64,000 bases of DNA from Agromyces subbeticus DSM 16689. Its GTDB lineage: Bacteria > Actinomycetota > Actinomycetes > Actinomycetales > Microbacteriaceae. The position numbers were made by a program, and so were the translations under genes. The notes under the pieces are model-generated. The model did not search any database. It saw only the letters and a list, made by a program, of their open reading frames with translations, and was not told the origin of the DNA. Shown here one piece after another: positions 44,996 to 61,303 of this stretch. The stretch is from positions 248,001-312,000 of the forward strand of contig NZ_ATXG01000001.1 of assembly GCF_000421565.1 (NCBI RefSeq), read 5' to 3'. Every line of letters starts with the position of its first letter. Positions within the stretch are counted from its first letter, which is position 1.

Positions 44996-45077
44996 GGCGA
45001 GTTACCCAAGCGGCCAAAGGGATCTGACTGTAAATCAGACTGCTCAGCATTCGGGGGTTCGAATCCCTCACTCGCCA
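44996..45077 (+). tRNA. tRNA-Tyr(GTA)
   Basis: 82-nt class II tRNA: acceptor GGCGAGT pairs with ACTCGCC, discriminator A at 45077, anticodon loop CTGTAAA with GTA, a long variable arm (GACTGCTCAGCATTC region) and T-arm GGGGGTTCGAATCCCT. No CCA is encoded. The 3' 51 nt are the core of the attachment site of the element that follows, and the gene is left complete by the insertion. Confidence 0.95.
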
Positions 45078-45079
45078 CC
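45027..45079. repeat. attL: 53-bp core direct repeat
   Basis: Identical over 53 bp to 61251-61303. It spans the anticodon-to-3' end of tRNA-Tyr plus 2 nt and contains the integrase stop codon (minus strand, 45068-45070). Confidence 0.95.
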
Positions 45080-46387
45080 CCCAGTAGTTGCAAGGGTTTC
45101 GGATGAAAGTCCGGGGCCCTTGTTCTCGTTCGAGGCCATTGTGTGTGCACTGTGTGTGCGAGACCTCGGTGGAAGGATCGATTCCGCGGCATCTGCGGCC
45201 GCTCGGTTCGCGTCGGTGAGCAGGTGCGAGTAGAGGTCACTCGTCACCGCAATGGTGGAGTGACCAAGCCGCTTGCTCACAACAGCGATGTCCACGCCGC
45301 CGCTGAGGAGCAGCGAAGCATGCTCGTGACGAAGGTCATGGAAGCTCATGCGAGGGAGCCCCGACCGCTCGACGATCGTGTCGAACGTTCGAGAGATGTG
45401 ATTGGGCCGAAGCGGTCGGCCATCCTCGTACGTGAACACGTAGCCGTCGCCACGGTAGACATCGCCCCACGCCTCGCGCTCAGCGTCCTGTCCTAGCTTC
45501 CACGCCACCAGCGCGCCGACTGCCTCACCGCCGATAGAGACGCGGCGATCCTGACCAGAGTCGGTCTTCACGGCCCCCTCGATGACCTCACGGCCGACCT
45601 GCACGCGCTGCTGCCTCACAGTGAGTTCTCGGCGGGTGAAGTCGACGTCGACCCATCGGAGGCCGGCGAGCTCACCACGGCGGAGGCCGGTGAACACCGC
45701 CAGTTCGAAAACCGGGGCGAGGCGCCAGGTCGACGCGAAGTCGAGGAACTCCCGAACGGTCTCAGGCTCCCAGATGCGGGTCTTCTTCTTGCCCGTCGAC
45801 GGCAGGGCGATCTTCGAGGCGACGTTCGTGTCGACGAGGCTGAGTCGTTCCGCCGCCGTGAGTGCGCTCGACAGTGATGCGTGGATGCGGCGCACGGTCG
45901 TCGCGCCCCGGCCGGCACCGGTGAGATCCTGAATGAATCGGTCGACGTGGAACCGGCGCAGCTCGGCGAGTTTGATCCGGCCGATGGATGGAACTATGTC
46001 CTGCTCGATGTAGCGGCGGTACATGCGTTCGGTGGACGGTCGAAGACCATCGCGGACGCGGCGCTCGAGCCACGACGGCAGGTACTCGCCGATGGTGATC
46101 TTGCGATCGCCTCGGAAACCGCCGCTCGCGACTTGGTCGACTGTGCGAGCCCGCTCTAGCTGCGCCTCGCGCTTTGTGGCGAAGCCCATGCGACGCACCT
46201 GGATGCGCTTCCCGCTGCCGGCGTGAGTGCCACCCGATACCGCGAACCCCCAGGTTCCGTGCTTCGGGTCGCGCTGCAGGATCGGGCATGCGGTCGCTTT
46301 CTGCGCTGCCGTCGCACGGTCCGGCAAGGGTCCGTAGAGGCGCCCATCGTCGCGCCGGCAGCCGCATCGGCGGTAGATGTCAGACAT
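45068..46387 (-). CDS. int: Tyrosine-type site-specific integrase
   Basis: 439 residues. Arm-binding N-terminal region with a CGC/Arg-rich start, a core-binding SAM-like domain (about 97-185) and a catalytic domain with Arg236 (TGLRRGEL), Lys274, His350 and Arg353 (HDLRHEH), His376 (GHSTIAVT) and Tyr386 (DLYSHL). It catalyses integration and, with an excision factor, excision at tRNA-Tyr. The stop codon lies in the att core, and the C-terminal tail codes through the GTGTGTGC repeats. AGGAGG precedes ATG 46387. Confidence 0.95.
   Translation of the reverse strand: MSDIYRRCGCRRDDGRLYGPLPDRATAAQKATACPILQRDPKHGTWGFAVSGGTHAGSGKRIQVRRMGFATKREAQLERARTVDQVASGGFRGDRKITIGEYLPSWLERRVRDGLRPSTERMYRRYIEQDIVPSIGRIKLAELRRFHVDRFIQDLTGAGRGATTVRRIHASLSSALTAAERLSLVDTNVASKIALPSTGKKKTRIWEPETVREFLDFASTWRLAPVFELAVFTGLRRGELAGLRWVDVDFTRRELTVRQQRVQVGREVIEGAVKTDSGQDRRVSIGGEAVGALVAWKLGQDAEREAWGDVYRGDGYVFTYEDGRPLRPNHISRTFDTIVERSGLPRMSFHDLRHEHASLLLSGGVDIAVVSKRLGHSTIAVTSDLYSHLLTDANRAAADAAESILPPRSRTHSAHTMASNENKGPGLSSETLATTGGGE
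45138..45160. promoter_or_regulatory. Candidate left arm-type integrase sites
   Basis: ATTGTGTGTGCACTGTGTGTGCG: two tandem GTGTGTGC units 11 bp apart, about 60 bp inside the core. A matching pair is at 61109-61132 near the other end, in the same orientation. Confidence 0.5.
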
Positions 46388-46414
46388 GCGCGCCTCCTGG
46401 GTTCTTGACGATGC

Positions 46415-46618
46415 TCACGGCCACTCCTCGATAGCTGGCGATCGCTCGGCTCGGTACGCGGCTTCCATCAGCGCCACGGCGAGCGAGCGGGCCTGATCTG
46501 GACTCAGGTCGGCGTGGACGTTCACGTTGGACAGGACTACTGCTCGCGAATCGCCGCGCTCGACGACGTCGACTTCGACGGGCTCGAGCGCGAAGCGAGG
46601 CATCAGCGTGAAGGCCAT
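46415..46618 (-). CDS. Small hypothetical protein
   Basis: 67 residues with no recognised domain; acidic middle (NVNVHADLSPDQARSLAVAL) suggesting a short helix. It lies 27 nt before int and overlaps the end of the 122-residue gene by 16 nt, so it belongs to the int operon. Confidence 0.55.
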   Translation of the reverse strand: MAFTLMPRFALEPVEVDVVERGDSRAVVLSNVNVHADLSPDQARSLAVALMEAAYRAERSPAIEEWP

Positions 46619-46971
46619 GCGTCTACCTCCGTAGCGGTCGCACCGAGATCACGGCCGAGCCATGCCTTCCGGTTGAGGATCTCGACGAGCGTCGCGTACT
46701 GGAGGATCTGCGCGGCGCCGTGGACGGCTTCCTGGTAGGTCACCCCTTCGTTCACGAGGCCGAAGTCGGCGTAGATGTCGAGCTTCCACTTCCCGGTCTC
46801 GATCTGGAGGAAGACCTCGAGCTGCAGGTCGCCGTGCTCGGCTTTCGCGGCGACGTGGATCGGTTCGGGCGCCACGTCGTCGATGTCGTGCTCGGCGTGT
46901 ATGCAGTCTTCAACGGGGCACGGGATCGTACGGGGGTTGTCGTTGTCGGCAGGGGGTGCGACGATGTTCAA
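46603..46971 (-). CDS. Hypothetical protein
   Basis: 122 residues, no recognised domain; N-terminal CPVEDCIHAEHD has two cysteines and two histidines that could bind a metal. TTG start at 46971 with GGAAGG upstream; no better start exists in frame. Part of the leftward int operon. Confidence 0.55.
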   Translation of the reverse strand: MNIVAPPADNDNPRTIPCPVEDCIHAEHDIDDVAPEPIHVAAKAEHGDLQLEVFLQIETGKWKLDIYADFGLVNEGVTYQEAVHGAAQILQYATLVEILNRKAWLGRDLGATATEVDAWPSR

Positions 46972-47003
46972 GGATCTAGTTTCCTTCCAGGGGATTGGTC
47001 TTC

Positions 47004-47036
47004 GCCCTCGGGTCGGCGGCTACCGACTTCGAGGGC
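47004..47036. terminator. Hairpin between two genes of the int operon
   Basis: GCCCTCG (47004-47010) pairs with CGAGGGC (47030-47036), with an inner TCGG/CCGA stem. T-rich sequence (ATTTCTGTTT) follows on the plus strand, so it would stop rightward transcription; its effect on the leftward operon is uncertain. Confidence 0.4.
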
Positions 47037-47049
47037 ATTTCTGTTTCGG

Positions 47050-47364
47050 TCACGCGAGCGTCCACAGCTGACAGGTCGAACCGGTGCGCGTGCGTCCTCG
47101 TTGTGACGCAGCGCGGACCTTGCCCTCGGCGACGAGCTCGCTGCGTCGCGTTCGCACGTTCTGCGGCGTTGCTGGCGGCACGCTGGGGTGCATGAAGCAG
47201 TGAGCCTCGTAGAGGTCGACGAGCCGTTCGTCGGACAGGGGTCCGTGGTTGTTGATGAGCGTGACGATTGCGGCTTGGACGAGTTGCCGGCGCGAGGTGG
47301 TTTGCGCTTCCGCCGCGTTCCAGGAGGTCTCGGGGTCGTGCGGGCGTGCGATCGGCGCGGGCAT
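47050..47364 (-). CDS. Winged-helix-like hypothetical protein
   Basis: 104 residues. HDPETSWNAAEAQ at the start and the LIYxLIxxxGPLSDERLVDLYE-like stretch followed by PSVPPATPQNVRTRRSELV suggest a winged-helix DNA-binding protein of a kind common in actinophage early regions. Its ATG touches the stop of the excisionase-like gene. Function unknown. Confidence 0.6.
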   Translation of the reverse strand: MPAPIARPHDPETSWNAAEAQTTSRRQLVQAAIVTLINNHGPLSDERLVDLYEAHCFMHPSVPPATPQNVRTRRSELVAEGKVRAASQRGRTRTGSTCQLWTLA

Positions 47365-47564
47365 CAGGACTCCTTCGGATTTATGCCGTCATGGGCACTT
47401 GCTTCGATCCATTCCGTGACGTCGTCGACGGCATAGAGAACCTTTCGCGGGGTGGGCTTGAACCATTTCGGGCCCTTGCCTTCATGACGAAGGACGCCGA
47501 GGTGGGAGCGGGTGATGCCGTAGCGTTCCTCCACCTGTTTCGGGGATAGGTACTGGGTGTCCAT
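47364..47564 (-). CDS. Excisionase-like helix-turn-helix protein
   Basis: 66 residues with a MerR/AlpA-like winged-helix: YLSPKQVEERYGITRSHLGV, then a YAVDDVTEWIEA end. Size, fold and place at the head of the int operon fit an excisionase or directionality factor. First gene leftward from the divergent control region. Confidence 0.7.
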   Translation of the reverse strand: MDTQYLSPKQVEERYGITRSHLGVLRHEGKGPKWFKPTPRKVLYAVDDVTEWIEASAHDGINPKES

Positions 47565-47663: not shown

Positions 47664-47670
47664 GCGGCCC

Positions 47671-48222
47671 GTGGTCGAGGAGCGCGGGGCGGGGTCAGTC
47701 GATGTCGCGTTCGCGAACGCGATGCGCGACGCGCGTCTCGCGGCGGGTATATCTCAGGGTGACCTCGGTGCGCGGATGGCTCAGCGCGGGTTCGATTTTC
47801 ACCAGACGACGATCGCGAAGATCGAGCGGGGCGCGCGGCGCGTGACGGTCGGCGAGGCGGCCGAACTCGCCGATATCGCGGGCGTTCCTCTGGCAGCCAT
47901 CCTCGAGCGAGATTCCGCATCCGTACCAGCGCGTCGAGCCCAGTTGGAAGCCAAGACGCGCGCGGTGCTCGTCGACCTGATCGCCCTCGACGATCGCGCT
48001 CGGGATGCACGCGAGCGCCTCGACGGTCTGCTGCAGCTCGCGGTCGAGTTCGATGCGATGGTCGGTGAGGATCTCGTTGAGTGGCGTGGGGAACGTATGA
48101 CTGCCGGGGCGTTCCTCGGTGACCTGCTGGATGTGCTCGACGTCGATGCGCTTTCGGAATGGGAGCAGTTCACCCGGTCGTCAGGCGGCGCCGCCATGCT
48201 CCGTCACTTCGGGCTGACCTAG
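47671..48222 (+). CDS. Xre-type regulator, probable element repressor
   Basis: 183 residues. Helix-turn-helix in residues about 12-70 (RDARLAAGISQGDLGARM, HQTTIAKIERGARRVTV), then a helical C-terminal region likely for dimerisation. Divergent from the int operon across an operator-like dyad: the classic place of an immunity repressor. The stop shares CTAG with the stop of the convergent gene. Confidence 0.78.
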   Translation: MVEERGAGSVDVAFANAMRDARLAAGISQGDLGARMAQRGFDFHQTTIAKIERGARRVTVGEAAELADIAGVPLAAILERDSASVPARRAQLEAKTRAVLVDLIALDDRARDARERLDGLLQLAVEFDAMVGEDLVEWRGERMTAGAFLGDLLDVLDVDALSEWEQFTRSSGGAAMLRHFGLT

Positions 48223-48970: not shown

Positions 48971-49195
48971 ATGACACTCGTGGAAGAGGTGCGAGCGCAG
49001 AAGGCCGCGCTGCCGAGCCCAGTCACTGCGCGCCTGATCCGGCTCGCCGCCGACGTCACCCAAGCGCGAATGGCTCAAGAGCTCGGCGTCTCGCGAGTGA
49101 CGATCGCGCGCTGGGAGGCCGGCACTCGTCGGCCCCGCGGGAAGATGATGCTCGACTACCGCCGAGTTCTCGACGAGCTGCGCGAGGCGGTGTAG
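48971..49195 (+). CDS. Small Xre/Cro-type DNA-binding protein
   Basis: 74 residues with a clear HTH (QARMAQELGVSRVTIARWEAG). GAGGAGGG lies 6-13 nt before ATG 48971, a far stronger ribosome site than elsewhere in the element. First gene of the rightward early operon; a Cro-like role is inferred. Confidence 0.72.
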   Translation: MTLVEEVRAQKAALPSPVTARLIRLAADVTQARMAQELGVSRVTIARWEAGTRRPRGKMMLDYRRVLDELREAV

Positions 49196-49198: not shown

Positions 49199-49405
49199 GT
49201 GCAGATCGAAATCCCAGACGAGCTCAAGGGCAAGCTCACGACCGATGTCGCGACCGCTGCGCGAGTCCTTGGCATCGGCCGCAGGCAGGCCTACGCCGCG
49301 GCGCAAGCAGGAACGATCACCACCCTCAAGATCGGTTCTCGCGTCCTGGTTCCCGTCGCGCCTCTCCTCGAGGCGCTCGGTATTCACGCAGGCAAGGCGG
49401 CCTGA
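49199..49405 (+). CDS. HTH (excisionase-fold) protein
   Basis: 68 residues: TDVATAARVLGIGRRQAYAA followed by TLKIGSRVLVPVAPLLEAL, the HTH_17/excisionase fold. GTG start 3 nt after the previous stop. It may help control the initiator gene right after it, or be a second directionality factor. Confidence 0.65.
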   Translation: MQIEIPDELKGKLTTDVATAARVLGIGRRQAYAAAQAGTITTLKIGSRVLVPVAPLLEALGIHAGKAA

Positions 49406-49409: not shown

Positions 49410-50297
49410 ATGGGCTTCCAGTCGACGACGCTCGCATTCGCGGTCCAGGGACTCTCTGGCCCGCAGAAGGCTGTGCTCGTCGCGCTGGCGCACTGCAGAA
49501 ACGACAAGAGCGGCAGGTGCAATCCCGGCCACGCGACACTCGCGCGCATGACGTCTCTCGGCGAGAAGACCGTGCGCCGCGCGCTCGCCGATCTCGAGGA
49601 CAATGCGCTCGGGCTGATCTCGCGCGCCGCGGTGGTCGTCGGCAACGAGAGGAAGGGGACGGACTACACCCTTCATCTCGCTCAGGCCGAACCCCCGGTC
49701 AGCGTGACCCCCGGTCAGAGTGACCACGGGTCAGAGCGACCAGAGGGGGTGGTCGGAGTGACCGCAGGTGTGGTCACAGAGTCCGCGACCCCCGGTCAGA
49801 GTGACCACCTAACAGGAAGAGAACAGGAAGGAACAGGAAGAGAACAGGAAGAACTCTTCGTGCATCACGAGGATGCACCAGCAGAGGTGAAGCCTGACTA
49901 CTCATCCGAGTTCGAAGACGAGTTCTGGCCGGTCTTCCCGAGAAAGCAGGCGAAGGCACCCGCCGCCAAGGCATTCGCGAAGGCGCGGACGAACCACAGT
50001 CTCGAAACGATCATGGCAGGTGTCCGTGCGTATGCCCTCGTGAACGCGGGCGGCGACAAGACGAAGATCAAGCTCCCCGCAGGGTGGCTCAACGATGAGC
50101 GCTTCGCAGATGAGGAGCAGATTCCCAACGTGCCCGAGCCGGCTCAACGTCGCGCTCCCGAGCAGCGCGCTCGGCAGACGTTGAGCCTCGCCGCGCTGCC
50201 TGTGGCGCCCCGTCTCGACGATCACGTGCATGAGTTCGTTCACGGCTGCTGCATTCGCTGTGGGCATATCGCCGAAGAACGGCGGTGGAGCGCATGA
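49410..50297 (+). CDS. Replication-initiator-like protein with iterons inside its gene
   Basis: 295 residues. N-terminal winged helix of the phage replisome-organiser type (GPQKAVLVALAHCRND, HATLARMTSLGEKTVRRALADLE), a low-complexity linker about 96-150 whose DNA holds the iterons at 49697-49806, and a C-terminal domain (FWPVFPRKQAKAPAAKAFAK, then a WLNDERF segment) like that of DnaA/DnaD-type phage initiators. The C-terminus holds a CCIRCGH cysteine cluster. Layout matches lambda O: binding domain, linker with origin, partner domain. Activity is inferred. Confidence 0.65.
   Translation: MGFQSTTLAFAVQGLSGPQKAVLVALAHCRNDKSGRCNPGHATLARMTSLGEKTVRRALADLEDNALGLISRAAVVVGNERKGTDYTLHLAQAEPPVSVTPGQSDHGSERPEGVVGVTAGVVTESATPGQSDHLTGREQEGTGREQEELFVHHEDAPAEVKPDYSSEFEDEFWPVFPRKQAKAPAAKAFAKARTNHSLETIMAGVRAYALVNAGGDKTKIKLPAGWLNDERFADEEQIPNVPEPAQRRAPEQRARQTLSLAALPVAPRLDDHVHEFVHGCCIRCGHIAEERRWSA
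49697..49806. repeat. Five 13-bp iterons (candidate replication origin)
   Basis: GGTCAGAGTGACC or one-base variants at 49697, 49713, 49729, 49751 and 49794. Each is itself a dyad (GGTCA-N3-TGACC). The first three are 16 bp apart. Right after them come four AACAGGAAG repeats (from about 49811 to 49850). Confidence 0.75.
49811..49852 (+). repeat. Purine-rich AACAGGAAG repeats
   Basis: Four copies of AACAGGAAG with alternating AG/G spacing. They are markedly less GC-rich than their surroundings and lie beside the iterons, where an unwinding region would be expected. Confidence 0.65.
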
Positions 50298-50557
50298 ACG
50301 CGTACCGAGCGCTGCATGACGCCCTCGCTGATCGTCAGCCGTTGTGCGCCGGCGATGACCGGTTCATCGCGGATGCCCCGTCGACGGAAGACATCGCCGA
50401 GATGGCGGGCATGTGCGAGCTGTGCTCGGTCAGAGCACGGTGCCTCGACTACGCGCTCGCGGCGAAGCCCGCGGCCGGGTTCTGGGCCGGCATCCGGCCA
50501 CCACGCACCTACGCGCCGAGGGCCGCCCGCAGCGCTGAAGACCGGAGGATCGCGTGA
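50294..50557 (+). CDS. WhiB-like iron-sulfur regulator
   Basis: 87 residues with Cys18, Cys41, Cys44 and Cys50 in the WhiB spacing (C, then C-x2-C-x5-C) and the G-rich turn FWAGIRPP. WhiB proteins hold a 4Fe-4S cluster and bind the sigma factor. ATG 50294 overlaps the end of the initiator gene. Actinophages often carry one; here it may set the element's transcription or tame a helper. Confidence 0.85.
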   Translation: MNAYRALHDALADRQPLCAGDDRFIADAPSTEDIAEMAGMCELCSVRARCLDYALAAKPAAGFWAGIRPPRTYAPRAARSAEDRRIA

Positions 50558-50946
50558 CCGACCACACTCACTTCATCGGCCCCGACGGGGTGCTCTCGTT
50601 CGACATCGACGCGATGGTCGCACAGGCGAAGACCGCGGCGGCACGGATCGCGCTCGAGGCGGGCAACCGTGACGAGCTCGCGCGGGTCGTCGCACAGGAA
50701 CTCGCCCGCATGGACATGCACCCCGCCCAGCGGGCCGCGTGGGTCGCGCTCGTCGTCGACTCGCTCGCCGGCGACATCTTCGCTCCGCTGCTCAGCTACG
50801 TGCAGGTGCGCGAGCGTGACTACGACTTCCTCGCCGAGCTGCGCCAGCGCGCCGGCGTGGGTACTGAGACGGGCAACCTGCCCGACTCCAAGACGGCCGA
50901 GCAGGGCGGCCCAGACGATGGTCACACGACCATGGACGGGCGGTAG
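50554..50946 (+). CDS. Hypothetical protein before the tape measure gene
   Basis: 130 residues, mainly helical, no recognised domain. GTG 50554 overlaps the WhiB stop; the tape measure gene follows 3 nt later. In siphophages this place holds tail assembly chaperones, but no slippery sequence or frameshift partner is evident here. Confidence 0.55.
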   Translation: MTDHTHFIGPDGVLSFDIDAMVAQAKTAAARIALEAGNRDELARVVAQELARMDMHPAQRAAWVALVVDSLAGDIFAPLLSYVQVRERDYDFLAELRQRAGVGTETGNLPDSKTAEQGGPDDGHTTMDGR

Positions 50947-50949: not shown

Positions 50950-53832
50950 ATGTTCGACGCCGGAGCGCTGATCTTCACCATCAAGGCCGCGGGAGCACAA
51001 CTCTTCCAGCAGGACCTTCGTCAAGCTGACCAGGCGATCGAGAAGACTGGGCGCTCGGCGTCGGCCGCGAAGGCACCGGTCGAGCAGCTCGGCAATGCCA
51101 CGGACACCGCGGGCAAGAAGTCGCGGGCCGCGACGCAGCCCCTCGACGAGCAGGCGCGCTCCACCGAGCGCGTCGGCGACGAGTCCGCGAAGGCGAAGGC
51201 GAAGCAGGAGGCGCAGGCCGCCGCGTCGGAGAAGCAAGCGCAGACCGCGCGCCAGCTCTCCGTCGCGCTCCTCGCCGCCGGCGTCGCCGTCACCGCCCTC
51301 GTCGGTCTGTCGGTCGCGAAGTTCGCGTCGTTCGATCACGCGATGTCGCAGACCGCGGCCGCGACGATGGCGACGACCGCCGAGCAGGAGAAGCTCGGCG
51401 ACGCCGCGCTCGAAGCCGGCGCCGACACCGCCTACTCGGCGAACCAAGCAGCAGCGGCTGAGGAGGAGCTCGCGAAGGCGGGCCTGAACGTCTCCCAGAT
51501 CATCGGCGGCGGCCTTCAGTCGTCCCTCGCGCTCGCCGCGGCCGGTCAGCTCGAGGTCGCACGCTCGGCGACGATCATGGCCACGACGCTGAAGCAGTTC
51601 AAGCTGCCCGCGTCGGATGCCGCGCACGTCGCCGACCTCCTCGCGGCCGGCGCTGGCAAGGCGCAGGGCTCCGTCGACGACCTCGCGCAGGCATTGCAGT
51701 ACGTCGGCCCCGTCGCGGCCGGCATGGGGCTCTCCGTCGAGGAAGTCACCGGCACGCTGGCCCTGTTCGCCGAGAACGGACAGCTCGGCGAGCGTGCCGG
51801 CACGGGCCTGCGCGGCGTGATCCAGTCGCTCGTGTCCCCGTCTGCGATCGCGGCTCAGACCATGAAGGCCTACGGCGTCGAGATCTTCGATGGCCAGGGC
51901 AAGATGAAGTCCCTCGCGCTCGTTTCCGAAGAGCTTCGGGGTGCGTTCTCCACACTCACGGAGGAGGAGCGCTCGGCTGCGCTCGGCCGGATCTTCGGCA
52001 ACGAGCAGATCACCGCCGCGCGTGTCCTCTACGAGGGCGGCGCAGCCGCCGTCGACAAGTGGACCGACGCCGTCGACGACTCCGGGTTCGCTGCCGACCA
52101 GGCGGCGCGCCGGCAGGACAACCTCGCGGGCGACGTCGAGAAGCTCGGCGGCGCGTTCGACACCGCCCTGATCAAGACCGGCTCGGGCGCGAACGACGTC
52201 CTCCGCGACATGGTGCAGTCCGTGACGGCGCTCGTCGACTGGTACGGCGAGCTCGACCCGGCCGTGCAGGGAACAGCGCTGACGCTCGGCATCGCGACCG
52301 GTGCAATGCTGCTCTTCTCGGGCGGCGCGCTCGGCGCGATTTCAAAGTTCGCCGAGCTGAAGGTCACCCTCGACAAAGCGAACATCAGCATGGGCAAGAC
52401 CGCCCTCATTGCCGGCGGTGTCGGTCTGGCCCTCACCGGCGTGCTCGTCGTCATTTCACAACTGGCGCAGCAGCAGGCCGAGGCCCGCGCGAAAGCAGAG
52501 GCCTACGCCGACACCCTCGAGGAGGGCACGCACCGAGTCACCGCGGAGACGCGGGAGATGGTCGCGACGAACCTGCAGGCGAAGCAGTCGCTCAACCTGC
52601 TCGGCATCGAGATCGACGCCATCCAGTTCGACTCCGCCGCCGACGGCGCCGCGAAGCTCGGCATCGGCATGAGCGACCTGACCGATGCGTCGATGGGCAA
52701 CGTGCCCGCGCTCGAGCGCATCGCGGAACTGACGCGCCTCCGGAATCGTACGGATGCCGAGGCTGTGCAAGTCCGCAAGGAGCTGAACCTCACGGAGGGT
52801 GAGTTCGCATCCGCGATCGACGCAGTGATCTACAGCATCGCGGGCGAGAACAGCACCATCGAAGACTCCATCCGGCTCGCGAAGCAGAATGACGAGCTCA
52901 CGAAGGACGGTGCCGAGGGCACTCGCGACGCTGCATCGGCGTACCTCGAGGCCGCGGACGAAGCGGGCGGCTACAACGACAAGCTTGCCGAGCTCATCGC
53001 GACCATCGACGAGGGCAACGGGAAGCACCTCGACGCTCGCGAGGCGAATCGGAAACTGATCGAGTCGCTCTCCGAGTTCGATGCGGCACTCGCCGAGAAC
53101 GGCGCCACCCTCGACCTGAACACCGAAGCGGGCCGCGAGAACGAGGCGAACCTCGACGCGATCGCGACCGCCGCGATGGATGCCGCGACGAGCACGATCG
53201 AAGCCGGCGGCAGTTACGAGGACTACCGGGCGTCGCTCGAATCGTCACGCCAGGCGCTGCTCGACCGAATCAACGATCTCGGCATCACCGGGCAAGCAGC
53301 CGAGGACCTCGCCGACGACATCCTCCGCATCCCGTCGGAGACGGAATGGCAGCTCATCGCCGAGACGGCCAATGCACGGAACGAACTCGACCGGTTCTTG
53401 GACGCCTACCAGGGTCGCACGATCGAGATGACCGTGCGCGCGACGAACGGCAACTATGCGACGCCGTCCGAGATCTTCGAGAAGGCCGATGGCGGCAACG
53501 TGAAGTTCTTCGGGAACGGCGGCGAGCACCACGTCGCGCAGTTCGCCCGCGCCGGCGACTGGCGGGTCTGGGCCGAGCCCGAGACGGGCGGGGAATGGTA
53601 CTTCCCGGACTCTCCGTCGAAGAGGTCGCAGTCCGTCGCGTACGCCGAGCAGATGCTCGACGGCTGGGGTTACGACATGACGCCGCGCGGTGGCAACGGA
53701 TCGCGCAGCTCCACGACGCTCGGGGCGGCGAAGTTCGAAGTGCACGTTCACGCGGCGCCCGGCATGAACACCGACCAGCTCGTTTCCAAGGCCGCCCGTG
53801 CGGCCAAGAAGCTCATCGAACAGCAGCTCTGA
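50950..53832 (+). CDS. Phage tail tape measure protein (TP901 type)
   Basis: 960 residues. Coiled-coil N-terminus, hydrophobic segment about 95-120, the TP901 core about 125-390 (YSANQAAAAEEELAKAGL, SVEEVTGTLALFAENGQLGE), two more hydrophobic segments about 435-510, long helical region, and a C-terminal WRVWAEPETGGEWYFPDSP motif usual in actinophages. Tape measure length sets tail length; at about 1.5 angstrom per residue this would give roughly 140 nm. It is intact. Confidence 0.92.
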   Translation: MFDAGALIFTIKAAGAQLFQQDLRQADQAIEKTGRSASAAKAPVEQLGNATDTAGKKSRAATQPLDEQARSTERVGDESAKAKAKQEAQAAASEKQAQTARQLSVALLAAGVAVTALVGLSVAKFASFDHAMSQTAAATMATTAEQEKLGDAALEAGADTAYSANQAAAAEEELAKAGLNVSQIIGGGLQSSLALAAAGQLEVARSATIMATTLKQFKLPASDAAHVADLLAAGAGKAQGSVDDLAQALQYVGPVAAGMGLSVEEVTGTLALFAENGQLGERAGTGLRGVIQSLVSPSAIAAQTMKAYGVEIFDGQGKMKSLALVSEELRGAFSTLTEEERSAALGRIFGNEQITAARVLYEGGAAAVDKWTDAVDDSGFAADQAARRQDNLAGDVEKLGGAFDTALIKTGSGANDVLRDMVQSVTALVDWYGELDPAVQGTALTLGIATGAMLLFSGGALGAISKFAELKVTLDKANISMGKTALIAGGVGLALTGVLVVISQLAQQQAEARAKAEAYADTLEEGTHRVTAETREMVATNLQAKQSLNLLGIEIDAIQFDSAADGAAKLGIGMSDLTDASMGNVPALERIAELTRLRNRTDAEAVQVRKELNLTEGEFASAIDAVIYSIAGENSTIEDSIRLAKQNDELTKDGAEGTRDAASAYLEAADEAGGYNDKLAELIATIDEGNGKHLDAREANRKLIESLSEFDAALAENGATLDLNTEAGRENEANLDAIATAAMDAATSTIEAGGSYEDYRASLESSRQALLDRINDLGITGQAAEDLADDILRIPSETEWQLIAETANARNELDRFLDAYQGRTIEMTVRATNGNYATPSEIFEKADGGNVKFFGNGGEHHVAQFARAGDWRVWAEPETGGEWYFPDSPSKRSQSVAYAEQMLDGWGYDMTPRGGNGSRSSTTLGAAKFEVHVHAAPGMNTDQLVSKAARAAKKLIEQQL

Positions 53833-53842: not shown

Positions 53843-54589
53843 GTGGCAAGTCGAACCCCACCATCTGAGAACTTCGGCCGGCAGAAGACCGAGGCGGAGA
53901 AGCGCGACCGCGGCATCCTCGACGCGCTCCGTATCGACGGCTCACAGTTCATTCGGCTCTACGAGAAGATGCAGGCCCTCATCGCGGATCTCGGCACGAC
54001 GGTGACCGCCCTCGTCACCGCGTTGACGTACACAAGGGCTGAGATCGACTCGAAGGTCGCCAACCCCGGCAACATTGCCCCTGGCAGCGTGACGGCGTCC
54101 GGCAACGTGACCGCCGCAGGGCAGGTCTTCTCGCAGGCACCGATTCGGTCGCCCGGGTCGCACGACTACATCGTCACAACGGGCTACGTGGCTGGCTGGA
54201 TCAACAGCGACGGCACGCTCGGAACATCACCCTCATCCCGCACGGTGAAGAAGAACCTCACGGCGATGGAGACGAGGTCGCCCGCCGACGTGGACGCTGC
54301 CGAAGCGCTGATGTCGCTGGTCCCGTACTGGGGCCACTACTCGTGGGATGACGACGGCTCGCCGCTGAAGGTGTTCCTCATCGCCGAGGACGTGCAGGCG
54401 GCCGGCTTCGGCCCCGACGTCGCCCCGGTGAACGACGAGGGCGATGCGTTCACCGTCAACTACTCGCAGCTCGTCGTGCCGCTCCTCGCGGCGCTGCGGG
54501 ACGAGCGGCGCGAGCGCCTCACCCTCGCAGCACGCGTTACCGCGCTCGAGCTGAGTTCGAACCCCACCCAAGAAGGAGAAGCACCATGA
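53843..54589 (+). CDS. Short tail-fibre-like protein with S74 intramolecular chaperone domain
   Basis: 248 residues. A short N-terminus with coiled-coil character (about 20-60), a Gly/Ser/Thr-rich middle (about 65-130), then SSRTVKKNL (Ser131/132, Lys136/137) and LFLIAEDVQ-like, NYSQLVVPLLAAL and a final coiled coil, the pattern of the S74 domain that trimerises fibres and then cuts itself off. Very little receptor-binding sequence lies before the chaperone. GTG 53843 follows the tape measure by 10 nt. Confidence 0.8.
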   Translation: MASRTPPSENFGRQKTEAEKRDRGILDALRIDGSQFIRLYEKMQALIADLGTTVTALVTALTYTRAEIDSKVANPGNIAPGSVTASGNVTAAGQVFSQAPIRSPGSHDYIVTTGYVAGWINSDGTLGTSPSSRTVKKNLTAMETRSPADVDAAEALMSLVPYWGHYSWDDDGSPLKVFLIAEDVQAAGFGPDVAPVNDEGDAFTVNYSQLVVPLLAALRDERRERLTLAARVTALELSSNPTQEGEAP

Positions 54590-54957
54590 CCGCATACAAG
54601 ATCGCATCACCCGACCCGCAGGCGATCAGCACGATCGGCGACGCGAACGACCACGACCGCAGCGTGCGCATCGTGCTCGGCGTCGGCTACACCACGAACG
54701 ACGTCATCGCCGAGTGGGCCGGCCGCCACGGTTACGGCGTCGAGACCGTCGACGAGATCCCGCAAGACCACCTCGACAAGGTCGCCCGACTCGACGCCTT
54801 CCCGGTGCAGTTCCTCGGCTCGCTGTCCGATGGCGAAGACCCCGAGCAGCGGTTCATGGTCACCGCGGGCGACGGGCACACCGCCATCGACCTGCGCGAC
54901 ATCATCAACGGCACCCTGATCCTCGATCTCGACGGCCGCCTCACCACCCCGAACTGA
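54586..54957 (+). CDS. Hypothetical protein
   Basis: 123 residues, acidic, predicted mixed fold, no recognised domain. AAGGAG lies 8 nt before the ATG, which overlaps the fibre stop. First of the unknown series after the fibre. Confidence 0.6.
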   Translation: MTAYKIASPDPQAISTIGDANDHDRSVRIVLGVGYTTNDVIAEWAGRHGYGVETVDEIPQDHLDKVARLDAFPVQFLGSLSDGEDPEQRFMVTAGDGHTAIDLRDIINGTLILDLDGRLTTPN

Positions 54958-54968: not shown

Positions 54969-55721
54969 ATGACGATCTACATCACATCCGTGCGGAACGC
55001 GGCTACCCGGCTCGCCGAGGCTCGCGCACGCTCTGTGACGCTCGCGCGGGCAACGGCCGACGCGATCGCCAGGGCCCGGACCTACACCGATGCGGACCTG
55101 AGCCCCCAGGGCCTCGCCTCGAAGCGCGCCGAGTTCGAGAGCCAGTTCCGGGCGGCAGCCAGCACGGACCTCGCCGCCATCCAGGCTGAGATGACGCAGG
55201 CACGCCAGTACCTCGCCGACGCCACCCGCGAGCACACTCAGATCCCGAACGACGCCGCCGCACTGATCCGCGCAGAGCAGAAGTGGCGCCAGATCGAACG
55301 CATCCTCGACGCCGGCGGCGACCTCCGCAAGCAGATCCGGACCGCTGATGCTGACACCGCGCTCGCGATCGCGGAGCACGCGCCCTCCTGGCTCGAAGCC
55401 GCCAGCACTACGCGAGGTACCGGCCTATACGATGCCGTCGCCAACGCGTTCGGAGCCACCGACGAGACGCCGGTCAACGGCGTCAGGCGAGCCGCGTACG
55501 CCCGGCTCGCCGATGTCTCGAGCGACCCGGCACTCTCGGAGCTCCTGCGGGCGGAGATCGCCGCAGACTCCCTGCAGGCGACCGCCGAGCCGTGGCTCTA
55601 CGCCGCCGGCCGCCTCGTCGAAGAGGGCGCAGCGGACATGCTCGGCGCAGCAGTCGCATCGGAGGCGGCGTCCCAAGCAGACCCCGCCCAGACGCTCGAG
55701 CACGCTGGTGACCCCGCATGA
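54969..55721 (+). CDS. Helical hypothetical protein
   Basis: 250 residues, almost wholly helical and Ala-rich, with heptad-like stretches (RLAEARARSVTLARATADAI, IQAEMTQARQYLADATRE). AAGGAG 8 nt before ATG 54969; overlaps the next gene by 4 nt. A structural or scaffold-like role is possible; not recognised. Confidence 0.6.
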   Translation: MTIYITSVRNAATRLAEARARSVTLARATADAIARARTYTDADLSPQGLASKRAEFESQFRAAASTDLAAIQAEMTQARQYLADATREHTQIPNDAAALIRAEQKWRQIERILDAGGDLRKQIRTADADTALAIAEHAPSWLEAASTTRGTGLYDAVANAFGATDETPVNGVRRAAYARLADVSSDPALSELLRAEIAADSLQATAEPWLYAAGRLVEEGAADMLGAAVASEAASQADPAQTLEHAGDPA

Positions 55722-56104
55722 CCGCCGATCAGTCATCGACCGAAGCGGCAGCCAGGGCCGAAGCGCTCGAGGCCGCGCTGTACGACCTCGCGCGCGACGT
55801 CGAGGCCGATCTCGGCACCCTCGGCCGGTTTCGCGGCATCTCGAATCCGTCGAGCGAGGGGTACGAATTCCGTGACCCCGGCCCCAACCGTGAGGCGTTC
55901 GAACTGCAGAAGATCGAGCACCCCGGCCGCGTCGAGCACACGCTCAACCAGTACCGATCCGCGCTCGCTCACGCGCGCGACGCGATCGGCCAGCTCAGCG
56001 CTGGCGACGACCGGGCCGCACTCATCGACCTTCACAACAGGATCGCCGAGATCCGCACCCATGACGATGCTGCAGGGCTCGTCGCAACCTTCGAGGAGAA
56101 CTAA
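55718..56104 (+). CDS. Hypothetical protein
   Basis: 128 residues, helical at both ends, with a short non-helical middle (GRFRGISNPSSEGYEF). No recognised domain. It overlaps its upstream neighbour (ATGA) and is 2 nt from the next gene. Confidence 0.6.
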   Translation: MTADQSSTEAAARAEALEAALYDLARDVEADLGTLGRFRGISNPSSEGYEFRDPGPNREAFELQKIEHPGRVEHTLNQYRSALAHARDAIGQLSAGDDRAALIDLHNRIAEIRTHDDAAGLVATFEEN

Positions 56105-56106: not shown

Positions 56107-56958
56107 ATGCCTATCGACCCGTATCTCGTCAATCGCGCCGCGAACGAGTTCCCCCATGTCTCACGCCCGGTGCTCACAGATCGGCAGTCGCCGCATCCCG
56201 TGTTCCCTGGTCGAATGAGCGGTACGCGACCTGGGCTCCGGGCACGCTCGGCCGCCCACGCCGCGCTGAAGGCAGCTGAGCAGCACCTGACGAACATCAC
56301 CAACGCCGGCAAGTACCAGAACGCGGAGATCGCTCCCGACGTTCTCCCTGAGCTACGCCGCGAGGTGGCCGGTCGTCTGACGGAACGCACTCGCGGGCAG
56401 TTCGACAACCCGCTGACCGGCTTCGTCCGGATCGCAGAGCAGGCGCACGCGGACGCTGAGGCAGTCGCTGAGAAATACCGCCCGCGTCTCGACCCCGAGT
56501 CCGCAACGCAGCTGGTGCGCACCGACCAGGCGTGGAACAACCACGTCAGGCCGATGCTCGAGAGCGGCAAGGGGTGGGACGAGATCATCCCCACGCTCGA
56601 CACGGATGGCATCCTCGCCGCTCAACGGTTCGCGGGTGGCTACGAGTCCGGCAAGCGCGACAGGTTCAGTCAGAACGAGGTTCCGTCGGTGCTCGACGGC
56701 ATCCAGACGATGTCTGCCCGACGCATCGTCGACATCGCCCCTCCTGAGGGCCGCGCGGCCCTCAGGGAGGCGCAGGACGCGGCCAGGGCGCTCGACTACA
56801 CACGCAACGTTGCGCGGATCGTGAGCGAAACGGATACGCGCAATGCCGCCACGCTCAGCATCGGCCTCACCCGCGGCGCATATCAGGCGGGTGTGCAGCG
56901 CCCCGTCGACACGTCGGACGAGGCGCTCGAGGCGTACGCAGCGGAGCTGGCCGGCTGA
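56107..56958 (+). CDS. Hypothetical protein
   Basis: 283 residues, mainly helical, no recognised domain. Conserved-looking blocks are RTDQAWNNHVRPMLESGKGW and FAGGYESGKRDRFSQNE. The stop overlaps the next ATG. Confidence 0.6.
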   Translation: MPIDPYLVNRAANEFPHVSRPVLTDRQSPHPVFPGRMSGTRPGLRARSAAHAALKAAEQHLTNITNAGKYQNAEIAPDVLPELRREVAGRLTERTRGQFDNPLTGFVRIAEQAHADAEAVAEKYRPRLDPESATQLVRTDQAWNNHVRPMLESGKGWDEIIPTLDTDGILAAQRFAGGYESGKRDRFSQNEVPSVLDGIQTMSARRIVDIAPPEGRAALREAQDAARALDYTRNVARIVSETDTRNAATLSIGLTRGAYQAGVQRPVDTSDEALEAYAAELAG

Positions 56959-57172: not shown

Positions 57173-57460
57173 ATGGCAACCGACAACCTCACCCGTCGAG
57201 CGAAGCGCGCTCGTCATGAAGCCGAGGGGCGCGCCGCCAACGAGATCGTCGACTGGTACAAGGCCGAAATGGCGAGGCTCGAGGCCGATGATTCGCTTAC
57301 GATCTCCGAGCGGATCTATGCGGAGCGTGACGTTCTGATGGAGTTCGGTCGGCGCTCGAAACGTGCGCTCGCGAAGGCCAAGCGCGACAACACCGCCCCG
57401 AAGATCCTCGAGCGCGAAGCTCGCGAGCAGATCGACCGTGAGCGTGGCCGCCGGTCCTGA
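57173..57460 (+). CDS. Charged helical hypothetical protein
   Basis: 95 residues, very rich in Arg, Glu and Ala; predicted long helix. AAGGAG 8 nt before ATG 57173. It overlaps the next gene. Not recognised. Confidence 0.6.
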   Translation: MATDNLTRRAKRARHEAEGRAANEIVDWYKAEMARLEADDSLTISERIYAERDVLMEFGRRSKRALAKAKRDNTAPKILEREAREQIDRERGRRS

Positions 57461-57803
57461 CCTCGGGCGTCTGCTCGACGACGCCGAGCGCAGCCGGTGG
57501 CCGGCCGGCGACGACAAGGCGGCGTGGGCGGCGCTCGCGAACTGGGCCTACCAGACCGAGTCCCTGATGTTCGACGAGGCCGAGAACCTCGCCTGGGAGC
57601 AGCAGATGCGGCACCTGAACCACCGCGAGCTGCTCTACCTCGAGTTCACGGCCGAGCGCATGGCCGCGCTCAGGTACCGCCTCCGAGCCCGGAAGCTCGC
57701 ACAGGCGAATCTCCGATACAAGTACGGGTTCCGGCGCGCCCGGGCCGGGTACCTACTCCGAGGCGCTGTGCGGGACTTCCACGCCCGATGGCTGACGAGC
57801 TGA
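57438..57803 (+). CDS. Hypothetical protein
   Basis: 121 residues, helical (FDEAENLAWEQQMRHLNHRE, LYLEFTAERMAALRYRLRAR). GTG 57438 overlaps the previous gene; GTG 57444 is possible. Last gene of the rightward coupled series. Not recognised. Confidence 0.55.
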   Translation: MSVAAGPDLGRLLDDAERSRWPAGDDKAAWAALANWAYQTESLMFDEAENLAWEQQMRHLNHRELLYLEFTAERMAALRYRLRARKLAQANLRYKYGFRRARAGYLLRGAVRDFHARWLTS

Positions 57804-57876: not shown

Positions 57877-58152
57877 ATGTCAAAGCTGCTGGTTGATCAT
57901 CATGCGGACGAGCCCGCATTGTTCGCGGGCGACGTCATCATCTCGTACAGGTTCGTCTGTGACCGTTGTGGCCAGCCTGTTGATTCCGTGGATGACCACG
58001 TCGTGTTCGAGTCGACTCCGGAGGGGACGCCAGCGTCTTTCGACTTCCGGCACAAGCACTGTGATCAGGAGACATCACCGTTGAGGTTCGTGACCGTGGG
58101 CTCGTTCCTTGCGAGCTTGAGGCAGTACGGGTTCTACACGCCTGCCGGCTAA
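57877..58152 (+). CDS. Hypothetical protein with possible zinc site
   Basis: 91 residues, with CDRCG and later HKHCD, a likely four-ligand metal site. ATG 57877 has AGTTGGGGG before it; GTTGTAAAGT upstream may hold a promoter. Its lower GC than neighbours suggests a separate origin. A bidirectional terminator follows. Confidence 0.6.
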   Translation: MSKLLVDHHADEPALFAGDVIISYRFVCDRCGQPVDSVDDHVVFESTPEGTPASFDFRHKHCDQETSPLRFVTVGSFLASLRQYGFYTPAG

Positions 58153-58392: not shown

Positions 58393-58749
58393 TCAGCGGA
58401 AGGTCCCGTTGTGGTGACGCCTGACGTTGTAGAGCGCGTAGGAGAGGCGTCGCTCTGAGCGGGTGGGTTCTCCGCTGCGGTTCGTCGTCCGGGTGAGCGC
58501 GAAGTACTGGCTCAAGAGCTTGTCTTCGGCCTCGATGCGGGCTGCCCATTGATCGATCTGCTGTGCGCGTGTGGCTTCTGCGGTGTGGGCCGAGCGCTCG
58601 AACCAGAGCTCGTAATCGCGGGCGATGTTCGTCACTGAGCCGGTGGAGATGCCGTGTGCTCGTGCGATGGCGTTACGGCCCATGCCGGCGCGGATGTCGT
58701 CGGCGACTCGGTCGCGGAGTTCGCGAGGGAGCGGGGGCGGCTTCGGCAT
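58393..58749 (-). CDS. HTH protein, possibly small-terminase-like
   Basis: 118 residues: an N-terminal HTH (LRDRVADDIRAGMGRNAIAR, AHGISTGSVTNIARDY) followed by helices. Similar layouts occur in small terminase subunits and in resolvase-like HTH proteins; neither is certain. If TerS-like, it would be the element's only packaging gene. Confidence 0.5.
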   Translation of the reverse strand: MPKPPPLPRELRDRVADDIRAGMGRNAIARAHGISTGSVTNIARDYELWFERSAHTAEATRAQQIDQWAARIEAEDKLLSQYFALTRTTNRSGEPTRSERRLSYALYNVRRHHNGTFR

Positions 58750-59393: not shown

Positions 59394-59513
59394 GCCGGGC
59401 AGGCTACGCCGGTCCGCCGACATCGCCGCGGTGAATCGCTGCGGTGGCTCGCGGTGGGAGCGGGATTCGCCGTCGCCACACTCAGCCAACGATCGAGCGC
59501 CCCGAGCCCCCGC

Positions 59514-59831
59514 TCACCTAGCGCGAGAGGTCGCTTCCGTCGTGTCCGGGCGCGGCGTCGCATGCGGGTACCCGGCGAATGGCGGCACACTGCCCCGCGG
59601 CACGACATCGAACCGCACGAGCTCGTTCGCGGCCGCGAGCGATGGCGCGGACGACATCAGGCGCTGCTCGGCCGGGTCGAGCGCCCACCGGATCACAAAG
59701 TAGACCTCGCCGCCCTTGGCGTCACGGTAGCGGCGGATGAGCGCCTTCGGCCGTTCCGGGTCGTTGCGGATGCACATCCATGTGTCGCCGTCGACGCGGA
59801 TCGGTTTCGGCAGATGACTGGCGGCGGCCAT
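59514..59831 (-). CDS. Hypothetical protein
   Basis: 105 residues, with a conserved-looking core VDGDTWMCIRNDPERPKALI and GGEVYFVIRWALDP, then a low-complexity tail. GAGAGGAG lies 5-12 nt before ATG 59831. Not recognised. Confidence 0.6.
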   Translation of the reverse strand: MAAASHLPKPIRVDGDTWMCIRNDPERPKALIRRYRDAKGGEVYFVIRWALDPAEQRLMSSAPSLAAANELVRFDVVPRGSVPPFAGYPHATPRPDTTEATSRAR

Positions 59832-59884
59832 GGGTGCTCCTCTCGAAGGGGAGCGCGCCGGCCCGCGCGGGTGATGATTCGATT

Positions 59885-60046
59885 CTACGAGTCGCCCGCC
59901 GACACGGCGGCCGCGACGATTACGCCGGCTCGCTCTAGCTCGCGCCGAACTGTGATGCGCGCGGTCAGCCAGGCGGCTAGAACGACGACTGAAAGGAACA
60001 CGAGCACGCCGAGAACGAACGGGACGAAGAACAGCAAGCGGGCCAT
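59885..60046 (-). CDS. Small single-pass membrane protein
   Basis: 53 residues: ARLLFFVPFVLGVLVFLSVV forms one membrane helix, then a basic stretch (TARITVRRELERAG) and a short tail. It lies 9 nt downstream of the zinc-ribbon gene. A holin-like role cannot be excluded, but one helix alone is weak evidence. Confidence 0.5.
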   Translation of the reverse strand: MARLLFFVPFVLGVLVFLSVVVLAAWLTARITVRRELERAGVIVAAAVSAGDS

Positions 60047-60055
60047 GCCCGGAGT

Positions 60056-60178
60056 CTAGACGGGACCCTCGATGACAGCGATCTTGCAGGTGCGGCACGT
60101 GTAGTGCCCGTGGATGAGCACGCAGCGGGTGCCGCAGTTCGGGCAATCCGGCTCGGTGGCCACAAGGTCGCTATCCAC
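60056..60178 (-). CDS. 40-residue zinc-ribbon protein
   Basis: CPNCG, then CVLIHGHYTCRTCK: four to five cysteines in classic zinc-ribbon spacing. GTG 60178 is the likely start. It heads the leftward small-protein module. A nucleic-acid or protein-binding role is likely from the fold. Confidence 0.55.
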   Translation of the reverse strand: MDSDLVATEPDCPNCGTRCVLIHGHYTCRTCKIAVIEGPV

Positions 60179-60221
60179 GCCGCGATTCTACGGCTCTCGC
60201 CCTGCCGAAGATCCGGTTGGC

Positions 60222-60227
60222 TACTGT
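60222..60227 (+). promoter_or_regulatory. -10 hexamer TACTGT for the HTH gene at 60234
   Basis: TACTGT ending 6 nt before ATG 60234; leaderless pattern. Confidence 0.45.
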
Positions 60228-60233
60228 CATCGG

Positions 60234-60509
60234 ATGGTCACGACATCCGGGCTCGACTTCATGCTTGAATTCCCACCTGCGCCCGAACGAACCCTCGAAG
60301 AGCCAACGGTAGGAGTTGCCGAGATGGCCATCTACCTGGGAGCGAGCGAGCACTCGGTGAGGCTGTATGCCAGCAGGGGTGACATCCCAGCATTCAAGGT
60401 CGGCGGGCGGTGGCGGTTCTACCTTTCCGACGTTCGCGCGCATCTCACGCGCGTGACTCCGGCCTGGCACCAGTCCAACCAATCACGCGGGCGCAGCCGC
60501 CTCAGCTAA
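60234..60509 (+). CDS. Excisionase-family HTH protein
   Basis: 91 residues; VGVAEMAIYLGASEHSVRLY and GDIPAFKVGGRWRFYLSDVR form the HTH_17/excisionase fold. It is transcribed toward attR and on its own. It could be a second directionality factor or a regulator of the leftward small-protein module. Confidence 0.7.
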   Translation: MVTTSGLDFMLEFPPAPERTLEEPTVGVAEMAIYLGASEHSVRLYASRGDIPAFKVGGRWRFYLSDVRAHLTRVTPAWHQSNQSRGRSRLS

Positions 60510-60543
60510 AACGACTTCGACGGGTGTGAGGTATTTCACCGGA

Positions 60544-61050
60544 CTACGGCTTGAACGCCGTGACGCACTGCGGGTAGCTCGGGTCCGGCAGCGTCACGTG
60601 AAAGCACTCCTCGGGGAAGCACGATGTGTGGTTCTCGCCGTCGCCCGAGTTGGGGAGGCTGCCGGCCGGGCACTTCGTCGCGCCGCTCGGAGCGTCCGGC
60701 TCGTCGATCTCCGCCTCGAGTTGCTGCTCGGCGGCGATCCGCTCGGCTTCGACGGCTGCGGCCTGTTCCGCGGCAACCCGCGCGACCTCGGCGGCGGCTG
60801 CGGCTTCCGCTGCGACGCGAGCCTGCTGAGCGGCGACGGCCGCGGCAGCATCCGTTTCCTGCTCGCCGGCGAGCCCGTTCGTGTAAGGAAGCGACGCGAA
60901 GTCGATCGTCTCGACCACCGCGGCGGGCGTCGGAGTCGGAACCGCTGAGCCTGCGCCGACCGCCGACGTGACGGCCACGATCGCGATGCCTGCAGTGGCA
61001 ACGAGCGCGAGCGCAGCACCCGCGATCCGGCCGAACCCTGATTTGTCCAT
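60544..61050 (-). CDS. Secreted Ala/Glu-rich protein
   Basis: 168 residues. A signal peptide or anchor (GRIAGAALALVATAGIAIVA), an Ala/Glu/Arg-rich coiled coil (about 65-110) and a C-terminal cysteine-containing domain (TKCPAGSLPNSGDGENHTSC, FPEECFHVTL). This kind of exported protein beside attR is often a lysogenic-conversion gene. ATG 61050 gives a sensible signal peptide. Confidence 0.6.
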   Translation of the reverse strand: MDKSGFGRIAGAALALVATAGIAIVAVTSAVGAGSAVPTPTPAAVVETIDFASLPYTNGLAGEQETDAAAAVAAQQARVAAEAAAAAEVARVAAEQAAAVEAERIAAEQQLEAEIDEPDAPSGATKCPAGSLPNSGDGENHTSCFPEECFHVTLPDPSYPQCVTAFKP

Positions 61051-61108
61051 GCGCGCAGTTAACCGCCGTTCATCGGGAATTGGAATAGCGACGGGCGTTG
61101 AGCCTGGC

Positions 61109-61132
61109 CATTGTGTGTGCGATTGTGTGTGC
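61109..61132. promoter_or_regulatory. Candidate right arm-type integrase sites
   Basis: ATTGTGTGTGCGATTGTGTGTGCG: two tandem 12-bp units, matching the pair at 45138-45160 and in the same orientation, about 120 bp from the core. Confidence 0.5.
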
Positions 61133-61250
61133 GTAATGCCGGATCGCAACGGCTACGGGGGGACACCGAGGGAGGCTGATTCTTCCGGAGACCCGCGAGA
61201 ACGTGGGCCGGGCGGAAGGCGCGGACACGGAGGGTCATGGCGGGCGGTTC

Positions 61251-61303
61251 ACTGTAAATCAGACTGCTCAGCATTCGGGGGTTCGAATCCCTCACTCGCC
61301 ACC
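61251..61303. repeat. attR: 53-bp core direct repeat (partial tRNA-Tyr)
   Basis: Identical to 45027-45079. It holds only the 3' part of tRNA-Tyr; no acceptor 5' strand or D-arm precedes it, so it is not a functional tRNA. Confidence 0.95.

Follow-up and report, generated by a model that had tools for sequence, protein, structure and literature searches.

A 64,000-nt stretch of the genome of Agromyces subbeticus DSM 16689 (the window, whose positions are used below) carries at 45027–61303 an element of about 16 kb that is flanked by identical 53-bp att copies at a tRNA-Tyr gene. Judged from its gene content, the element is probably a phage satellite, integrated and dependent on a helper, with a tape measure protein (TMP) of its own for chimeric tails. 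The evidence is an intact TMP gene in an element in which no head gene is recognised, and a set of comparable islands in other Microbacteriaceae.

Tail genes and missing head genes of the tRNA-Tyr element

The element is discrete and integrated. As proposed in an initial annotation made from the letters alone, it has att sites and an integrase: perfect repeats bound it, the first of them in the 3′ part of the tRNA-Tyr gene, and a tyrosine integrase gene adjoins attL (Table 1). A suhB-like neighbour gene (61411–62283) lies beyond attR; its nine best matches in named genomes all come from Agromyces, with protein identities of up to 80%. In a sample of 41 genomes of the genus, all of which matched, loci were obtained for 30 including the window's own. 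The tRNA-Tyr gene stands directly before the suhB-like gene, as an uninterrupted site, in 14 of the 29 congener loci examined, and is not close by in the remaining 15. All 53 att bases, compared on one strand, are identical in 3 of the 14 uninterrupted sites.

The TMP gene, annotated as intact from the start, indeed has an undisrupted frame with a third-position GC of 0.89 and encodes three membrane-like segments. The fibre gene that follows had been called S74-type; that label came from a motif only, and no Pfam match was obtained at E 0.01. The product is distantly related to a protein annotated as “minor tail protein” in two Microbacterium phages, OscarSo and Wyvern (E 1e-6 to 1e-5), and also to post-TMP genes in the prophages L078 and L095. 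The protein encoded directly upstream of the TMP is a candidate TMP chaperone by position only.

Genes for the terminase large subunit (TerL), portal, capsid, tail tube and lysis were not recognised in the element. PHROG scans of 20 of its frames (19 of the 32 called genes and one frame not chosen by the caller; called genes outside the scans are all at most 168 aa) yielded nothing significant for head, packaging or lysis, and an endolysin match at 57173 (E 0.079) and a TerL match over 19 residues at 57877 (E 0.081) were at chance level. Profiles of 23 prophage gene clusters, described below, did not match the element either. Besides those for the TMP and the integrase, the called genes all have at most 295 aa, and among those of no known function the longest, at 283 aa, is too short for TerL or portal. 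By PHROG, Pfam and cluster profiles, the element thus has no complete virion-building gene set, as expected of a satellite, and the early observation that large terminase, portal, capsid, major tail and lysis genes are missing stands.

Further, four Pfam models for TerL or portal (PF03354, PF03237, PF05133, PF04860) matched nothing in the whole host genome (4.3 Mb, 34 contigs). The same models match all 15 genomes that hold a TMP-bearing prophage recognised from gene clusters; the independent control is confined to these 15 because the prophage status of five further genomes (G056, G066, G090, G202, G255) rests only on the Pfam matches used as control.

A gene that had been overlooked, at 58393–58749 on the minus strand, matches phrog_5536, a family resembling small terminases, over the family's DNA-binding end (Table 1). 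Its product is 46% identical over 59 aa (E 0.002) to that of gene 1 of Streptomyces phage Hiyaa, which overlaps terL. We read phrog_5536 as a small terminase (TerS) family because its relatives overlap terL in two Streptomyces phages, Eklok and Hiyaa, as well as in prophage L106, in which the gene that follows has a match to Terminase_6N; phage Raleigh has its relative at the right genome end, with terL as the first gene.

Related islands and the history of their TMPs

A TMP search of 299 Microbacteriaceae genomes matched 37, comprising 14 with an island without head genes, 20 with a prophage and three that were left unclassified (G120, G164 and G296; short or weak matches). An initiator search matched 29 of the 299 and added the islands L098 and L105, which gives 16 islands including the window's; regions of 20 kb were taken around 29 loci besides the window's own. 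Hence, 15 further islands carry a TMP without head genes, and they lie at different sites and have different integrases. An integrase was seen in 14 of the 15, the other being L130, whose contig ends nearby. Exact direct repeats of 24–53 bp flank nine of the 16 islands, the window's included; these nine span 10.1–16.4 kb, with seven at tRNA genes (two each at Tyr, Val and Ser, one at Thr) and the remaining two, L070 and L085, at other sites. The limits of L072, L073, L075, L084, L086 and L089 were taken from flanking host genes and that of L130 by eye at the contig side, and the islands without att repeats are located among tad pilus or comM-type genes, as read by eye. L073 has a tyrosine integrase, and L072, L075, L084, L086 and L089 share a recombinase cluster, two tested members of which are serine recombinases (PF00239). 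The L105 element, whose integrase is 59% identical to that of the window element, also lies at a tRNA-Tyr gene, the kind of locus named at the outset as a place to look for relatives.

The called genes of the sampled loci were clustered, and profiles were made of those 23 clusters (within clusters 4–35) that had three or more members from prophages. They include portal, TerL, capsid, tail tube and minor head clusters, identified from PHROG or by comparison with annotated genes of Microbacterium phage Footloose, and many clusters without assigned function; TMP stayed outside this comparison, as did the fibre and TerS clusters, which were too small for it. Against 318 proteins from the 16 islands, 22 of the 23 profiles gave no match, and the sole matching profile, that of the cluster with the Footloose tail assembly chaperone (TAC), matched L071 only (E 1e-12). 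The portal, TerL, capsid and tail-tube clusters of the co-sampled prophages occur in none of the 16 islands. TMP, fibre cluster c33 and TerS cluster c24 are common to satellites and prophages.

Genes that could specify assembly are scattered over the islands: TerS homologues are found in seven of the 16 (none was recognised in the other nine), a head scaffold in two (L071 and L081; phrog_233, 4e-10 and 1e-9) and a TAC in one. In detail, the TerS of L075, L084, L085, L086 and L089 is of the Footloose type (phmmer with Footloose terS, 9e-9 to 3e-15), that of L075 also matching phrog_1496 (2e-18), and the phrog_5536 type is present in the window (5e-15) and in L105 (8e-39). The scaffold, TAC and TMP of L071 are all related to those of Footloose.

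In a TMP tree of 39 rows, the satellite label needs 6 changes, of which at least 4 are forced by well supported branches; when L084, which is split, and L098, L105 and L095, which have long branches, are removed, the count is 7 changes, at least 5 of them forced. The window TMP is nested with those of the prophages L067, L068, L069 and L076 (support 95–99; 39–46% identity), and the L071 TMP pairs with that of Footloose (support 98). Such a tree alone gives no direction of gene movement, and its simplest reading is that satellites captured TMPs from phages. Satellite TMPs are of rather even length, 14 of 15 having 879–960 aa when the L084 protein, which is split over two frames, is counted. They are somewhat shorter than prophage TMPs, with medians of 915 vs. 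990 aa (15 vs. 16 rows, Mann-Whitney p 0.007), or 915.5 vs. 990 aa without L084, L098, L105 and L095 (12 vs. 15 rows, p 0.003), although these p values are merely indicative because the rows are related. The window TMP is the shortest in its clade, yet only 9 aa below that of L068. L130 (G208) was kept outside the trees and the length comparison. Neither the L098 nor the L105 TMP is recognised by Pfam, and PHROG recognises that of L105 (7e-7) and not that of L098, which weakens the TMP label of the latter; the L098 protein is 34% identical over 874 aa to the prophage TMP of L095. A TMP search of viral contigs returned no relatives. In L084 (8700–11449, G239), the TMP stands in two adjoining frames, for which sequencing error, decay and frameshifting are indistinguishable.

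The TMP descent suggests that the helper of the window element would be a phage of the kind represented by L067, L068, L069 and L076. In 13 of the 16 satellite genomes the four Pfam models found no TerL or portal, and in the other three (G009, G035, G258) the matches lie outside the element; the helper may therefore come from outside, as for the phage-inducible chromosomal island-like element (PLE) of Vibrio cholerae. In G009, a separate prophage (L129, G009:542001–562000) begins just beyond satellite L075 at the same locus. It has a recombinase-like gene of its own, matches to TerL and portal, and a TMP-like gene of another kind, coding for 739 aa (PF06791, below cut-off).

Among satellites, the TMP seems to be a module that can be exchanged or be absent. 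A conserved, helical-looking protein (alignment A1) occurs in nine TMP satellites (L070, 7288–7827, and eight others) and is a candidate hallmark of the satellite clan; the window element has no recognisable A1 protein. Searching 396 genomes of the order with A1 gave 6 matches, two of them outside the family, and the five new loci (L124, L125, L126, L127, L128) have no TMP within 20 kb, the 59 genes of L125–L128 being compared by BLAST and the TMP profile only. Similarly, the satellite-like island L096 (10403–14324, G191) encodes a tail protein besides its integrase and initiator, and has no TMP within 20 kb. It is because of the A1 loci and L096 that the TMP is taken as optional, and the clan may be much wider than the 16 islands. 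Apart from these, L085 (12254–14982, G011) holds cargo with a GajA/AAA-ATPase-like gene, a possible defence system in a satellite.

Remaining genes and competing readings

The features of the window element are collected in Table 1. The regulators named initially (CI-like, AlpA-like and Cro-like) were confirmed, as was the initiator with its iterons. The minus-strand product of 47364–47564 is presumably AlpA/excisionase-like, a name taken from its sequence type. The initiator was scanned in PHROG and Pfam as the frame starting at 49362, and the iterons inside its gene, with spacings of 16, 16 and 65, are a putative origin of replication. The two largest proteins between the fibre and TerS-like genes stand alone: the one at 54969 has no relatives in phage or viral-contig collections, and the one at 56107 no believable relatives in viral-contig or genome-contig searches, its match in G284 (E 5e-4) being noise that lies antisense within a host gene resembling sugar-phosphate mutase. 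Profile comparison of both with the satellite proteins A1 and A2 was not significant (lowest E 0.049).

Dense coding had been ascribed to the whole element. This applies to roughly 46.4–58.2 kb only, because the right end, about 58.8–61.2 kb, is sparsely coding. There, ARAGORN called a tRNA-Ile at 60428–60515 on the minus strand, overlapping the helix-turn-helix (HTH) gene, which Rfam did not confirm and which is probably spurious. Just inside attR, 60544–61050 on the minus strand could encode an alanine-rich protein with an apparent signal peptide and no family match.

Table 1. Features of the element at 45027–61303, in window positions (pLDDT, predicted local distance difference test).
Positions	Strand	Feature	Evidence
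45027–45079	+	attL, 53-bp direct repeat in 3′ part of tRNA-Tyr (44995–45080)	exact repeat
45068–46387	-	tyrosine integrase, 439 aa	phrog_1 3.4e-77; PF00589 1e-25
47364–47564	-	HTH protein, 66 aa	cluster c3, 12 loci including other elements
47671–48222	+	CI-like repressor	phrog_3 6e-6
48971–49195	+	Cro-like HTH protein (named from sequence type)	related genes in L094, L096
49199–49405	+	small HTH DNA-binding protein	cluster c75, common to L096 and L105
49410–50297	+	replication initiator (HTH_36)	phrog_270 3.3e-37; PF13730 3e-8
49687–49808	.	iterons, four 25-bp copies within initiator gene, family D1	repeat search
50294–50557	+	WhiB-like regulator	PF02467 2.9e-8; cluster c37, also L072, L075, L084
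50554–50946	+	130-aa protein directly upstream of TMP	no PHROG/Pfam family above cut-off
50950–53832	+	TMP, 960 aa, intact	PF10145 3e-48; phrog_1533 1e-85; trees
53843–54589	+	fibre / minor tail protein, 248 aa	cluster c33; phage minor tail relatives
54586–54957	+	123-aa protein, no significant family	PHROG, Pfam, PADLOC scans
54969–55721	+	250-aa protein, predicted helical	single-sequence model all helical, pLDDT 51.5
55718–56104	+	128-aa protein	no family above PHROG/Pfam cut-off
56107–56958	+	283-aa protein, predicted helical	model nearly all helical, pLDDT 48.4
57173–57460	+	95-aa protein	coding by codon usage
57438–57803	+	121-aa protein	relatives just after initiator in L096, L098 islands, 37%
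58393–58749	-	small-terminase-like HTH protein, 118 aa	phrog_5536 5e-15 over residues 4–79
60324–60509	+	excisionase-like HTH protein	phrog_66 2e-6 for longer frame 60114–60509
61251–61303	+	attR, other 53-bp perfect repeat copy	exact repeat

One option of the initial annotation, a satellite that supplies tail-length and fibre proteins to a helper, fits these data, given 15 more TMP islands without head genes, some with TerS, scaffold or chaperone. On siphophage infection or induction, the element would excise and replicate from its own origin, and its small-terminase protein would direct the helper terminase to satellite DNA. The satellite TMP would then take the place of the helper TMP in tails whose tube and baseplate proteins come from the helper, and the satellite would thereby partly set the tail length, injection and adsorption of the resulting chimeric particles.

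Several points weigh against the satellite reading. The element is known from sequence, and neither a helper nor excision, particles or transfer have been observed; by the four TerL/portal models the host genome holds no resident helper. The TMP-without-heads combination is not independent evidence because the 16 islands were picked for it. As to the TerS-like gene, it matches the N-terminal half of its family only and is not encoded on the same strand as the TMP genes, and phrog_5536 itself carries no assigned function. The TAC profile does not match the protein at 50554–50946, so that the window element has neither a recognised TAC nor a scaffold, and six genes between the fibre and TerS-like genes have no assigned function. 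L071, the best-equipped relative, shares little with the window element beyond integrase, WhiB-type and TMP genes.

Alternatively, the element could be the remains of a once larger siphoprophage that lost its head genes by deletion and kept integrase, control genes, TMP and fibre. This is unlikely, even though the TMP and fibre have relatives among phage genes, the window TMP is nested among TMPs of full prophages, and the final 2.5 kb are sparsely coding. Islands of this type recur with different integrases and at different sites; the TMP is intact and satellite TMPs keep a narrow length range; the clusters that flank TMP in prophages (tail tube, pre- and post-TMP genes) are not in the islands, except for the TAC in L071; and TerS and scaffold without TerL or capsid are unexpected from random deletion.

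A helper-dependent island whose TMP is mainly anti-phage, a mismatched TMP spoiling the tails of invading phages, is also rather improbable. Blocking of tail assembly is a known defence (Tai; PMC11364771), and the PLE protein Rta acts on the helper TMP (PMC12987554). The GajA/AAA-ATPase-like gene of L085, another island, would also suit a role in interference. However, the integrase, initiator and TerS-like gene of the window element point to transfer, deletion of the PLE tmp lowers PLE transfer (PMC12987554), and PADLOC found no defence protein among six window proteins.

Another initial option, a small siphophage with head proteins too divergent for recognition, fails on size and is very improbable. 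Six genes have no known function, and autonomous actinophages of 14–17 kb exist. But besides the length limit given above and the PHROG scans without a significant head or packaging match, the two largest of these proteins are predicted helical (at low confidence, from single sequences), and the element lacks a recognisable TerL, portal, major capsid and major tail protein, the set by which an autonomous siphophage would be known. The tailocin-like weapon, also raised initially, can practically be dismissed, since next to the TMP and fibre-like genes nothing recognisable as a gene for a tube, a sheath, a baseplate or lysis was seen.

Known satellites and significance

The window element was set beside PLE by gene content. 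PLE, too, is integrated, has a TMP gene and probably uses the helper tube and baseplate; its TMP and BhuB were found in PLE virions with a 10-nm tail difference, tmp deletion led to a loss of transfer, and the presence of TMP, TAC and BhuB in chimeric tails was shown experimentally in 2026 (PMC12987554). PLEs are described there as the first satellites known to place their own TMP in a helper tail, with the statement that no other satellite had been reported to encode a TMP (PMC12987554). A satellite-encoded TMP is given in the window by the PF10145 match, and one relative here, L071, also has genes for a TAC and a scaffold. Unlike the window element, PLE belongs to another host phylum, has another initiator type and differs in the TerS-like and fibre genes; the PLE TMP is of the contractile-tail type, whereas the window TMP is of the TP901 type, as in siphophages.

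Staphylococcus aureus pathogenicity islands (SaPI) and other phage-inducible chromosomal islands (PICI) presumably share with the element the integrase, regulators, own replication and own TerS; the window element differs in carrying a TMP. Capsid-forming PICI (cf-PICI) are likewise integrated and helper-dependent, and a sampling of them carries putative tmp genes (PMC12987554). They encode capsid, portal and terminase and take tails (PMC10690885), while no head module, and thus none of these three, is recognised in the window element. The Streptomyces satellites MulchRoom and MiniFlayer are actinobacterial and similar in size (14.8 and 17.4 kb), but encode capsid and packaging genes and are roughly the inverse of the window element; for the Mulch-system satellite, no tail-gene homologues are reported (the helper's name is printed there, apparently a slip) (PMC10690885). 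AH14b of Pseudomonas sp. ANT_H14 is a 16.8-kb satellite whose helper, AH14a, has a siphophage-type TMP; the TMP described for this pair is that of the helper, and AH14b has a P4-like integrase, an AlpA-like regulator and a primase (PMC4936722).

No TMP-bearing actinobacterial satellite appeared among the best-ranked papers listed in literature searches, which is weak evidence of absence as most subscription journals and bioRxiv were outside the coverage. The family of TMP-bringing actinobacterial satellites is apparently undescribed so far: TMP-swapping satellites have been known as a kind since 2026, and what is new, as far as searched, is this family, its tail type and the repeated exchange of TMPs. 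Tentatively, these islands could be part of a large clan of satellites in actinobacteria, as yet without a name, whose members bring a modular set of virion specifiers and no building blocks, in which TerS would settle which DNA, the scaffold which head, the chaperone and TMP which tail, and the fibre which receptor. In such a clan, the TMP would have been captured repeatedly from helper lineages, and the satellite's ruler would therefore track its helper. The TMP trees also name candidate helpers, which for L071 would be a Footloose-like Microbacterium phage because its TMP, TAC and scaffold are all related to Footloose. Together, 16 islands with siphophage-type TMPs and several switches between satellites and phages point to tail reprogramming as a general strategy of satellites in another phylum.

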